Of a stretch of 64,000 nucleotides of DNA, positions 7,045 to 11,841 are shown piece by piece (position 1 is the first letter of the stretch; each line of letters opens with the position of its first letter). The notes beneath the pieces are model-generated. The model saw nothing but the letters and a program-made list of their open reading frames with translations, did no database searches and had not been told where the DNA came from. Location: assembly GCA_029561305.1 (NCBI GenBank), contig JAKQJG010000376.1, forward strand, positions 1 through 64,000, read 5' to 3'. This stretch comes from Bacteroidota bacterium (GTDB taxonomy: Bacteria > Bacteroidota > Bacteroidia > Chitinophagales > Chitinophagaceae). The position numbers and the translations under genes are program-made.

Positions 7045-7389
7045 ATGAATGCTTTAAAAAACAGGGTTCAGTTGATTGGTAACCTGGGCAATGCCCCTGA
7101 AGTAAAAACCGTAACAAACGGAAAAAAAATGGCCCGGTTCAGCGTGGCTACCAACGAAAATTACCGGAATGCCAAGGGAGAAAAAGTAACAGAAACCCAT
7201 TGGCACAATGTAGTGGCCTGGGGCAAAACAGCAGAGATTGCAGAAAAGTATTTAACAAAGGGCAAGGAAGTGGTAGTGGAAGGCAAGCTCATTACAAGAA
7301 GTTACAATGATAAAGACGGGAATAAAAGATCCATCACAGAAGTGGAGGTAAATGAACTGTTGATGATGGGAGGAAAAGAAAAAAATTAA
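7045..7389 (+). CDS. ssb: Single-stranded DNA-binding protein (short, no acidic C-terminal tip)
   Basis: OB-fold SSB motifs VQLIGNLGNAPEVK, MARFSVATNE, HWHNVVAWGKTAEIAEKYLTKG. Confidence 0.92.
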   Translation: MNALKNRVQLIGNLGNAPEVKTVTNGKKMARFSVATNENYRNAKGEKVTETHWHNVVAWGKTAEIAEKYLTKGKEVVVEGKLITRSYNDKDGNKRSITEVEVNELLMMGGKEKN

Positions 7390-7784: not shown

Positions 7785-7830
7785 ATTCGTGTTCATTTGT
7801 GAACTGAGTGTAGCCGTAGTATTCGTGGTT
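7785..7830. repeat. Degenerate ATTCGTG-type repeat
   Basis: attcgtgttcatttgtgaactgagtgtagccgtagtattcgtggttaaa resembles the 9293-9320 arm attcgtgtccattcgtgcaattcgtggctaaa. Confidence 0.5.
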
Positions 7831-7842
7831 AAAAAAAACTTT

Positions 7843-8434: not shown

Positions 8435-8779
8435 ATGTACGCATTAAGAAACAAAGTTCAATTGATTGGAAACCTGGGTAACGCACCAGAAGTAAAAATA
8501 GTAGATGGCGGTAAAAAGATGGCACGCTTTAGCATGGCCACCAACGAAACATTCCGGGACAGGGCCGGGCGTAAAGAAACAGAAACCACCTGGCATAATA
8601 TTGTTGCCTGGGGTAAAGTGGCGGAGCTGGCCGAAAAGTATTTAACTAAAGGAAAAGAAATTGCCATCGAAGGAAAACTTGTCAACCGCACCTATAACGA
8701 CAAGGAAGGCAACAAACGCTATGTAACTGAAATTGTTGCCAACGAATTGTTGTTGATCGGTGAAAAAGAAAGAGCCTAA
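8435..8779 (+). CDS. ssb: Single-stranded DNA-binding protein paralog (short, no acidic C-terminal tip)
   Basis: MYALRNKVQLIGNLGNAPEVK...TTWHNIVAWGKVAELAEKYLTKGKE; strongly similar to the 7045 protein. Confidence 0.92.
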   Translation: MYALRNKVQLIGNLGNAPEVKIVDGGKKMARFSMATNETFRDRAGRKETETTWHNIVAWGKVAELAEKYLTKGKEIAIEGKLVNRTYNDKEGNKRYVTEIVANELLLIGEKERA

Positions 8780-8787
8780 TGCAGGTC

Positions 8788-8815
8788 GCCACGAATTGCA
8801 CGAATGAACACGAAT
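8788..8815 (+). repeat. Left arm of 28-bp inverted repeat flanking the GxxExxY gene
   Basis: GCCACGAATTGCACGAATGAACACGAAT; 27/28 identical to the reverse complement of 9293..9320. Confidence 0.95.
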
Positions 8816-8865
8816 AGTTGTGATTGATGCGGTTCGTGGCTTTTTTAATTTTTAATACCCAACTT

Positions 8866-9243
8866 ATGGAACAGGTAATTTACAAATCCGAGGCCTGTCA
8901 AATCATTGGTGTTTGTATGGAAGTGTACAACATACTTGGTTATGGTTTTGCTGAAGTAGTATATAAGGATGCAATGGAGATTGAATTTGTTGAGCGAAGC
9001 ATGCAGCACAAAAGGGAGCATTTGCATGTAATTAAATACAAGGGCAAAATTCTCCAGCATAAATTTTTTGCAGATTTTACACTGCATGAAAGTATCATCC
9101 TGGAAGTCAAGGCAGGCAAAGAAGGAATCACAGATGATGCCATTTCTCAAACACTCAATTACCTGAGAGCTTCAGGTATCAGGCTTGGTATTATCATTAA
9201 CTTTGGCAAGTCAGGGACAGAGTACAAAAGATTGGTTTATTAG
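8866..9243 (+). CDS. GxxExxY protein (PD-(D/E)XK nuclease-like superfamily)
   Basis: MEQVIYKSEACQIIGVCMEVYNILGYGFAEVVYKDAMEIEF contains GFAEVVY (GxxExxY); D...ExK-like FADFTLHESIILEVKAG; start reassigned to 8866. Confidence 0.9.
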   Translation: MEQVIYKSEACQIIGVCMEVYNILGYGFAEVVYKDAMEIEFVERSMQHKREHLHVIKYKGKILQHKFFADFTLHESIILEVKAGKEGITDDAISQTLNYLRASGIRLGIIINFGKSGTEYKRLVY

Positions 9244-9292
9244 TCAATTTATGTTAATCATTCCTTTTTTTAAATACACAATCCAATTTTTC

Positions 9293-9320
9293 ATTCGTGT
9301 CCATTCGTGCAATTCGTGGC
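9293..9320 (-). repeat. Right arm of 28-bp inverted repeat flanking the GxxExxY gene
   Basis: ATTCGTGTCCATTCGTGCAATTCGTGGC; reverse complement of 8788..8815 with one mismatch. Confidence 0.95.
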
Positions 9321-9336
9321 TAAAACTCTTTAATTT

Positions 9337-11841
9337 ATGGCAACTGTAGAACGCAACGAAATATTTGACCTGGCTTACCGCTTCATTACCGAAACGCAGG
9401 AAAGTATTTTCCTCACCGGTAAAGCTGGTACCGGCAAAACAACCTTTCTTAAATACCTCCGGGAACATTCATCAAAAAATATGATCGTTGCGGCACCAAC
9501 AGGTGTGGCAGCCATAAATGCCGGTGGCGTTACACTGCATAGTTTATTTCAGTTACCCTTACATCCATTTTTACCTACAGAAAATAACAAGCAGGAACTA
9601 TTAAGCAAGATCCGCTATCAAAAGCAACGCATACAACTATTGCGTAAAATGGAATTGCTGGTGATAGATGAGATCAGTATGGTGCGCTGCGATGTACTGG
9701 ATGCTATTGATGCCATTTTAAGAAGTGTAAGAAGAAACCACCAGGCAGCTTTTGGCGGCGTTCAAATATTATTCATCGGCGATCTGTTCCAGTTACCGCC
9801 GGTGGCAAGAAGAGAAGAGTGGGACAACTTGCTGGGCAATTATTATTCGTCGCCCTTTTTTTTCGACAGTAAGGCTGTAAAAGAACAAACACCTTTATTA
9901 ATTGAGCTTACAAAAATTTATCGCCAGAAAGAACAAAGTTTTGTTGACTTGCTGAACAAGGTCCGCAACAACTATATGGACAAAGATGATTTTGAAGAAC
10001 TCAACAATCGTTTTATCCCGGGCTTTCATCCCACCCCGGAACAAAAATTTATTACGCTTACTTCTCATAATGCACAGGCAGATACCATCAACCAGGTGAA
10101 GCTGCAAAAACTGCAGGCTTCCTCATTCACCTATAAAGCAAGGATCGAAGGAGATTTTCCAGAGAATGTCTATCCCGCCGAACCAGAACTGTTGTTAAAG
10201 GAAGGCACCCAGGTGATGTTCATCAAGAATGATATCATTACAAAAAAATACTTTAATGGTAAGATTGGGGTGGTTACTTCTCTTAGCAAAGACAAGATCA
10301 TCGTGACCTGTGACGGAGAAGCAATTGAAGTGGCCGAGGAAACATGGGAGAATGTAAAATACACACTCAACCGCAGCGATGAAAAATTAGAACAGCAAGT
10401 ACAGGGCAAATTTTTTCAATATCCGTTGCGCCTCGCATGGGCCATCACTATTCACAAAAGCCAGGGTCTCACGTTTGATCATGTAATGATCGATGCTGCC
10501 TCTTCTTTCAGCAGCGGGCAGGTATATGTAGCGCTAAGCCGATGCACCAGCCTGAATGGCATTGTGCTGTTATCTAAAATTCCTTCTACAGCCATTCACA
10601 GCAACCAGCAGGTAGTGGCGGCCCATTCATCGCTGGTGCCCAAAGGTTCTTTAGCAGAAAGATTTGAAGGTGCCAGGCAGCTATTCACCCTGCAGTTATT
10701 GAGCGAAATATTTTTACTGGAAGACATTGAAACAGCACTTCGGTTTTTAAAGTATACTATTGATAAAAACAGGGACAAATTAAATGCAGATGCCCCGGAA
10801 TGGATAGCGCAGTTTTTAGCAGAGATCAATACATTGAAAACAACAGCTGACAAATTTGTCGGCCAGGCACAGCATTTAATGAGAGAAATTACTGCTATTG
10901 AAAACAATCCTGCACTGCAACAGAGGATACAGGCGGCGGCAGGATATTTTTTGCCCTTGCTGGAGAAATTGAAAGAACAATTACAACAGCATCCGCTCTC
11001 TACTGAACATAAAGAAGCAGCAACCGCAGTAGATGAAAACCTGCAGGAAGTGATGACGGCCTTCGTAAAAACCATTTACTTTATCCAATATTGCAAAGAG
11101 CCATTCACAGTAACGGGTTATTTAAAACACAAGCTCAATCTCGGCATACCCAGAATGCATATCAGCAGTTATGCAGCCAACAAAAAGCAAATGGCATCTT
11201 CTGATATTCCTAATGCGGAATTGTATTATGATTTGCGGAACTGGAGGGATAAAATCTGCAATGAACAGGAACTGCCGATTTATTTTGTGGCCAATAACAA
11301 CAGTTTAAAAGAAATCAGCACTTACCTGCCTTTAACTGAACAGCACCTGCAGCAACTAAGCGGCTTTGGAAAAGCAAAGGCTGATAAATACGGGGGAGAC
11401 ATTTTGGCAATGGTGCATTCTTATTGCGACAAACATCATATTGAAACCAATATGGAGTTAAAAGCAGCCAGTCCAAAACGCAAGCGTAAAGAACCTTCTG
11501 AAGCAAGGGCAGACGGAAAAATACCTTCGGCAGCATTGAGCCTGCAGCTGTACAATGAAGGAAAAAATATTGTTGACATTGCCAGGGAAAGAAATCTCGC
11601 TGCCAGTACCATTGAAGGTCATCTCACCAGTTATGTAAAAACAGGCGCTATTAAAGTAGATGCTTTTGCAGATGACGTCGCTGTAAAGATCATCAGCGAA
11701 TACTTAAGCACCAACCCGGATAAGCAACACGGCGAAATAAGAACCATGTTGAATGATGCTTATAGTTTTGTCCAGATCAGGGCGGTGGCGAATCATTTGA
11801 TATGGGAGCAGAATAAAAATATCACGGTATCGGCAAGTTAA
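9337..11841 (+). CDS. Pif1/RecD-like AAA helicase with C-terminal HRDC and helix-turn-helix domains
   Basis: GKAGTGKTTFLKYL Walker A, VIDEISMVRCD Walker B, GDLFQLPPV, TIHKSQGLTFDHV and YVALSRCTSL; HRDC-like NWRDKICNEQELPIYFVANNNSLKEISTYLP..LQQLSGFGKAKADKYG; HTH SLQLYNEGKNIVDIARERNLAASTIEGHL. Confidence 0.92.
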   Translation: MATVERNEIFDLAYRFITETQESIFLTGKAGTGKTTFLKYLREHSSKNMIVAAPTGVAAINAGGVTLHSLFQLPLHPFLPTENNKQELLSKIRYQKQRIQLLRKMELLVIDEISMVRCDVLDAIDAILRSVRRNHQAAFGGVQILFIGDLFQLPPVARREEWDNLLGNYYSSPFFFDSKAVKEQTPLLIELTKIYRQKEQSFVDLLNKVRNNYMDKDDFEELNNRFIPGFHPTPEQKFITLTSHNAQADTINQVKLQKLQASSFTYKARIEGDFPENVYPAEPELLLKEGTQVMFIKNDIITKKYFNGKIGVVTSLSKDKIIVTCDGEAIEVAEETWENVKYTLNRSDEKLEQQVQGKFFQYPLRLAWAITIHKSQGLTFDHVMIDAASSFSSGQVYVALSRCTSLNGIVLLSKIPSTAIHSNQQVVAAHSSLVPKGSLAERFEGARQLFTLQLLSEIFLLEDIETALRFLKYTIDKNRDKLNADAPEWIAQFLAEINTLKTTADKFVGQAQHLMREITAIENNPALQQRIQAAAGYFLPLLEKLKEQLQQHPLSTEHKEAATAVDENLQEVMTAFVKTIYFIQYCKEPFTVTGYLKHKLNLGIPRMHISSYAANKKQMASSDIPNAELYYDLRNWRDKICNEQELPIYFVANNNSLKEISTYLPLTEQHLQQLSGFGKAKADKYGGDILAMVHSYCDKHHIETNMELKAASPKRKRKEPSEARADGKIPSAALSLQLYNEGKNIVDIARERNLAASTIEGHLTSYVKTGAIKVDAFADDVAVKIISEYLSTNPDKQHGEIRTMLNDAYSFVQIRAVANHLIWEQNKNITVSAS

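Follow-up and report, generated by a model that had tools for sequence, protein, structure and literature searches.

A GxxExxY nuclease-family gene enclosed by heptamer-array inverted repeats, a candidate autonomous member of a miniature hairpin family

The GxxExxY element and its site

The window, a 64,000-nucleotide stretch from a Chitinophagaceae genome (443 contigs totalling 4.8 Mb; GxxExxY genes number four; one same-genus relative carries the name Ferruginibacter), contains a GxxExxY gene enclosed by two inverted arms and located between a single-strand binding protein gene (ssb) and a helicase gene (Table 1). The arms are complementary at 27 of 28 positions, exactly as an earlier note on this DNA had described, and 477 nt lie between them; the three CACGAAT-type units that it had read in each arm were confirmed by coordinates, with a spacing of 9 and 10 nt within each arm. 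The units were also called phased, but the phasing is loose, since spacings of 8, 9 and 10 nt occur in comparable numbers. With up to three mismatches allowed, the arm pattern occurs in the window at these two sites only and in none of 100 shuffles. The left end folds alone as a hairpin because of a decayed inner reverse arm, giving a 13-bp stem with a z score of -3.4 in single-strand DNA folding. The sole gene between the arms is the PF13366 gene; no transposase is present there, in agreement with the earlier note.

Table 1. Coordinates of the GxxExxY element and its flanking genes in the window
Feature	Position	Strand	Details
ssb, upstream host gene	8435-8779	+	single-strand binding protein
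Left arm	8788-8815	+	three CACGAAT units at 8790-8796, 8799-8805 and 8809-8815; outer GC
Decayed inner reverse arm	8828-8840	-	TGCGGTTCGTGGC; closes a hairpin with 8788-8800
GxxExxY / PD-(D/E)XK nuclease gene (predicted)	8866-9243	+	125 aa
Putative active-site codons, GFAEVVY	8944-8964		contains E30
Putative active-site codon, D70	9073-9075
Putative active-site codons, ExK	9103-9111
Right arm	9293-9320	-	three minus-strand CACGAAT units at 9293-9299, 9303-9309 and 9312-9318
Helicase, downstream gene	9337-11841	+	PIF1-like, with HRDC domain

Elsewhere in the window, a second ssb gene (7045-7389) lies about 1 kb from the flanking one; the two enclose a small DUF2116-like zinc-ribbon gene and a short minus-strand ORF. 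Isolated reverse units (ATTCGTGTTCATTTGTG and ATTCGTGGTTAAA) are found at 7785-7833 between two small minus-strand genes and are probably a decayed hairpin.

The window protein falls into PF13366 (E = 1.2e-29; 103.5 bits against a cut-off of 22) and TIGR04256 (109 bits against a cut-off of 35). Across the family alignment, G25, G27, E30, Y33, D70, E80, K82 and F113 are invariant and Q95 and Y99 nearly so; E30, D70, E80 and K82 are all intact in the window protein. Judged from the alignment, the conserved residues correspond to a RecB/Cas4-type active site. The AlphaFold2 model (pLDDT 93.6) has Cas4 SSO0001 (4ic1; E = 1.3e-4), LHK-Exo (3syy; 9e-4) and lambda exonuclease (1.2e-2) as its nearest solved folds in Foldseek, and a profile match to T7 endonuclease I was weak and not significant (E = 1.4). 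GxxExxY is thereby predicted to be a minimal Cas4/lambda-exonuclease-type PD-(D/E)XK DNA nuclease, and the nuclease fold previously proposed from GFAEVVY and ExK is borne out by the modelled fold and the E-D-ExK site.

Phages lack the gene, and plasmids almost entirely so: at the limit of the search, relatives were encoded in no phage record and in four plasmid records. Near-identical occupied and empty records on plasmids or phages were essentially lacking, as copies there are near zero. At several loci, among them the L015-type ones (G015:C16, C21, C58), the GxxExxY gene is interrupted by stops or split but its arms persist, suggestive of turnover. In the literature searched, the repeat words were not found and GxxExxY appears in passing mentions only, its function undescribed.

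The ssb-helicase junction is conserved in the genus, and most of about 25 genomes have no GxxExxY gene there. Several of the empty junctions leave about 80-200 nt between the ssb stop and the helicase start, and the empty loci carry terminator-like hairpins. The junction is occupied in G000 with CACGAAT arms, in G066 with CACAGAT arms, and in G013 and G067 by a distant clade with CGCAGAT arms; the differing clades and arms indicate that the site was used more than once. The closest relative of the window gene (L216; 63% identity) is also located at an ssb-helicase site, with both arms upstream of its gene. Across positions 8779-9337 of the window and loci L159, L162, L165 and L216, the junction holds elements of at least two GxxExxY clades whose arms differ, much as a preferred site would. 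Empty sites, the lack of which would have counted against the earlier note, therefore exist at the level of the locus, but a base-precise one was not found: with the nearest genomes about 80% identical, the flanks have diverged too far for junctions to be read exactly. Synteny between two Flavobacterium-like genomes, a more closely related pair, similarly reveals hairpins present or absent at orthologous places, in alignments too diverged for exact junctions. Among 51 elements, no target-site duplication above chance was detected, observed and shuffled counts being equal.

Inverted arms and unit words across the family

We sampled 109 GxxExxY loci from 60 related genomes, aligned the 350 nt upstream of each gene to the reverse complement of the 350 nt downstream, and called a flanking inverted repeat at a score of at least 14. 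This score was reached at 62% of the loci, in 0 of 218 dinucleotide shuffles and in 1.6% of mismatched locus pairs. After collapse to 69 gene contexts the mean was 59%, and about 40% of the relatives have no clear inverted repeat. About 2% of 353 other same-genus genes scored as high. Of the three top-scoring controls, the window's gene aside, two come from known or probable mobile elements, one being a RAYT with REP arms and the other an IS-like gene, and thus serve as a positive control. In 464 kb, a single PF05635 gene was the only case of another gene type with such arms, and its arms are different. With arms at 62-77% of relatives (the higher figure from the scan described below) against about 2% of controls, the link between repeats and gene drawn in the earlier note holds up, and the contrary finding that it had allowed for, relatives carrying the gene without any flanking repeats, did not materialise.

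The units are concentrated at the gene, their density beside it being about 36-fold that at 500 nt or more away, with the convergent orientation bias expected. The arms start with a T run followed by GCC or ACC and the heptamers; T runs mark the 5' side, A runs the 3' side. Copies at unrelated loci cease to be similar at the arm ends or within about 20 nt of them. For the pair L099/L118, blastn similarity covers 826-1280 and 831-1280, with arms at 828-1286 and 836-1282, respectively; for L113/L130, it covers 810-1309 and 806-1309, with arms at 830-1306 and 827-1305. Concerted evolution of the two arms within a locus looks suggestive, but the choice of arms was biased toward within-locus similarity and we do not rely upon it. 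Tandem arrays also occur near GxxExxY genes. Another GxxExxY gene of the window genome has a short upstream array of CGCAGAT arms with a period of about 37 nt (L001:1301-1420), and a further GxxExxY gene has arrays of about 40-nt CGCAAAG/CGCTAAG-type repeats on both sides (L090:8-260 and 660-900).

The arms are mostly arrays of units of about 7 nt, and the unit varies among protein clades; the words seen are CACGAAT, CACAGAT, CGCTGAT, TTGTCTGAA+GATT, CACAAAG, CGCAAAG, CGCAGAG, CACATAG, CGGGAAG and CACCAAA. In a 104-protein tree, 19 changes account for the unit ending, compared with 34.8 +- 1.9 for shuffled labels. Part of this agreement is vertical inheritance of orthologous loci, and a further test by matched clades was therefore made. 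The full deep alignment being too diverse for a GTDB genome scan, the window's own clade was used. It yielded 80 loci, which represent at least 48 gene contexts and belong to Bacteroidota, Ignavibacteria, Calditrichota and one MAG each under the names Acidobacteria and planctomycete; MAGs may include misbinned contigs. Inverted repeats scored at least 14 at 77% of these loci. With unit classes assigned by simple patterns, AAT-type units were present at 69 and AAG-type units at 3 of the 80 loci; a second clade (query L044) had AAG-type units at 24 of 30 loci and AAT-type at 2 of 30, and control stretches 1.5 kb away gave 2 of 60. A unit that follows the protein clade is what recognition or propagation of its own ends by the protein predicts.

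A gene inside hairpin arms is not unique to GxxExxY. Genes of PF05635 (the 23S_rRNA_IVP four-helix bundle) in these genomes have inverted arms at 17 of 30 loci (L186-L215; also L143:13246-13638). Their arms are strict tandem heptamers of period 7, with an autocorrelation of 0.65 at lags 7, 14 and 21, compared with about 8-10 nt for GxxExxY. In Coxiella, the intervening sequence (IVS) of 23S rRNA ends in a 28-bp stem and contains an S23/PF05635 ORF (PMC4990558). The parallel layout and the Coxiella stem together suggest a broader class of one-gene, hairpin-ended, transposase-free elements.

Gene-free hairpins and their dependence on the gene

The window genome contains 22 CACGAAT pairs, spread over about 14 sites, and no match to a reversed control pattern. 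About a dozen copies are gene-free and several of these are closed hairpins, so that the repeats are not confined to the gene. Several pairs are convergent, and on contig C407 the same arms are just 30 nt apart. Over 297 Bacteroidota genomes, we counted 891 CACGAAT pairs and 403 CACAAAG pairs with few control matches, the dispersed hairpins ranging from 0 to about 100-170 unit pairs per genome. In one complete genome with 100 matches (G286), the 13 sampled copies are mostly hairpins of the form TTTTTCGCCACGAATTCACGAATT-loop-AATTCGTGAATTCGTGGCGAAAAA with variable loops. Some hairpins are nested in hairpins of another type, CACAGAT in CACGAAT and CACATAG in CACGAAT (L343:400-560 and L346:18396-18660).

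Repeat abundance tracks whether the gene, and likewise the matching clade, is present. Of 30 genomes with the cognate clade, 12 had at least 10 CACGAAT pairs, against 4 of 267 genomes without it (p = 1.6e-10); among GxxExxY-positive genomes only, the counts were 12 of 30 and 3 of 119. The other clade was a poor predictor of the same load (9 of 52 against 6 of 97). At least three CACAAAG pairs were present in 38 of 149 genomes with any GxxExxY gene and in 1 of 148 without. Fisher tests across related genomes overstate significance, and the genus-level versions of the CACGAAT and CACAAAG tests, which are safer, gave p = 2.5e-4 and 2.8e-6, respectively. Clade specificity is weaker for CACAAAG, which is enriched with its own clade (23 of 52 against 15 of 97) and also with the other (14 of 30 against 24 of 119). 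There are exceptions: many repeats accompany only a distant GxxExxY gene in G364 (171) and G302 (44), some are present with no GxxExxY gene in G285 (10) and G229 (7), and some genomes with the cognate gene have no exact pair. The earlier note would have been weakened by repeats occurring as freely without the gene; this applies in part, as gene-free hairpins are indeed frequent, yet from one genome to the next their occurrence depends on the presence of the gene.

A nuclease-plus-repeat reading and its alternatives

The reading that we favour, at a probability of roughly two in three, is that the element is the autonomous, gene-bearing member of a miniature hairpin family with GxxExxY as its trans-acting factor, similar to REPIN/RAYT with an unrelated enzyme. 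We infer recognition, cutting, copying and movement by GxxExxY along the following lines. The protein would recognise the heptamer-array hairpin of its own clade, either as a single-stranded hairpin or as an extruded cruciform, and the nuclease would cut at the recognised hairpin. Host replication or repair would then place copies of the hairpin, either alone or together with the gene, at new intergenic positions, and the gene-free hairpins would be the non-autonomous form.

REPIN/RAYT systems (for example PMC3116915, PMC8266576) are REP doublets with TnpA-REP, a Y1 HUH transposase. Shared with them are a chromosomal gene flanked by palindromic repeats presumed to be mobilised by it, numerous gene-free inverted doublets that form hairpins dispersed in the genome, a repeat class tied to an enzyme class, and little or no carriage by phages or plasmids. 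GxxExxY is by prediction a PD-(D/E)XK nuclease rather than a Y1 HUH transposase, however, and its arms consist of 2-4 heptamer-like units spaced 8-10 nt with a sequence that switches between clades, lacking the GTAG/CGTC-tagged REP palindrome. The GxxExxY system thus shares the logic of REPIN/RAYT but does not belong to it, since it lacks the defining HUH enzyme. MITEs and IS elements likewise have short terminal inverted repeats and non-autonomous copies with variable interiors; the present gene-bearing form differs in having no DDE or HUH transposase and no detected target-site duplication. With Cas4, lambda exonuclease and RecB-type enzymes the protein shares the predicted fold, the E-D-ExK site and the QxxxY motif, but it is minimal at 125 aa, has no CRISPR context and is linked to hairpin repeats. 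Free-standing homing endonucleases are also single small endonuclease genes acting as selfish units, but homing targets one cognate allele whereas the GxxExxY unit occupies many sites with its own terminal repeats.

The hairpins could instead be independent MITE-like repeats moved by another enzyme, with GxxExxY a passenger that inserted into one or was captured by it. Hairpins without the gene are far more numerous than those with it, hairpins nest in each other and some genomes have repeats without the gene, all of which would suit a passenger. We nevertheless consider this unlikely, as it does not explain why the unit follows the GxxExxY clade across at least 48 contexts, why the repeat load tracks the matching clade, or why these arms are missing from other gene types in 464 kb bar the one PF05635 gene with its different arms. 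Ordinary intergenic repeats or terminators placed around the gene by recombination, with no functional link, are the least probable explanation of all and very improbable: the many gene-free repeat sites and the terminator-like hairpins at empty ssb-helicase loci are in keeping with it, but controls reach only 0-2%, the matched-clade test already disfavours it, and T runs on the 5' side with A runs on the 3' side are the wrong way round for intrinsic terminators.

An RNA-level element akin to the 23S rRNA intervening sequences, whose arms pair in the transcript and whose protein processes or protects RNA, draws on the Coxiella IVS and on the inverted arms of PF05635 genes in these genomes. The IVS is likewise a unit of about 0.4-0.5 kb with one small ORF, a long terminal inverted repeat and no transposase, and has been called selfish. 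It sits in rRNA, however, is processed by RNase III and encodes a four-helix bundle, while here a PF13366 ORF lies between ssb and helicase genes. G-U-compatible changes are not enriched among the arm mismatches (47 vs 53; 34 vs 35), the predicted fold is of DNA exonuclease type, an Rfam search returned no match, and the gene-free copies are dispersed hairpins and not rRNA inserts, making this possibility improbable. The proposal in the earlier note that the protein recognises or propagates its own ends, as DNA or as transcript, accordingly divides: the link to the gene, the arms bounding the similarity and the unit following the clade agree with it, and the transcript role is not supported, the mismatches having no G-U bias. 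Slightly less probable than the RNA element is a genome defence or addiction module in which the hairpins are self-marks or operators and the nuclease attacks DNA that lacks or carries them. A small solitary nuclease gene, decaying copies and a clade-specific recognition word would be compatible with such a module. Arguing against it are the lack of a methylase or antitoxin partner between the arms, the presence of arms on both sides of the gene, and a range of 0 to about 170 unit pairs per genome that is too variable for obligatory marks.

For the favoured reading of GxxExxY as the trans-acting factor, the occurrence across many bacteria of family branches that each keep their own word and their own gene-free hairpins points to an undescribed nuclease-plus-repeat selfish system. 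A bolder extension, to which we would give a little less than even odds, is a transposase-free selfish class whose sole dedicated spread factor is a minimal Cas4-like nuclease that reads, in hairpins, a heptamer code specific to its clade. The unexplained intergenic CTTTGTG/ATTCGTG/ATCTGTG/CTTTGCG-type repeats of environmental bacteria would then be its non-autonomous copies, and PF05635 would head a second class. If true, this would assign an owner to very common unexplained intergenic repeats in the genomes of Bacteroidota and other environmental bacteria. It would also supply a function for GxxExxY, an annotated family whose function we did not find described in the literature searched. Should the nuclease move the hairpins, a third enzymology for bacterial miniature repeats would join the DDE and HUH transposases. 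The pairs of clade and heptamer would constitute a natural recognition code, and might serve as hairpin-specific nucleases.
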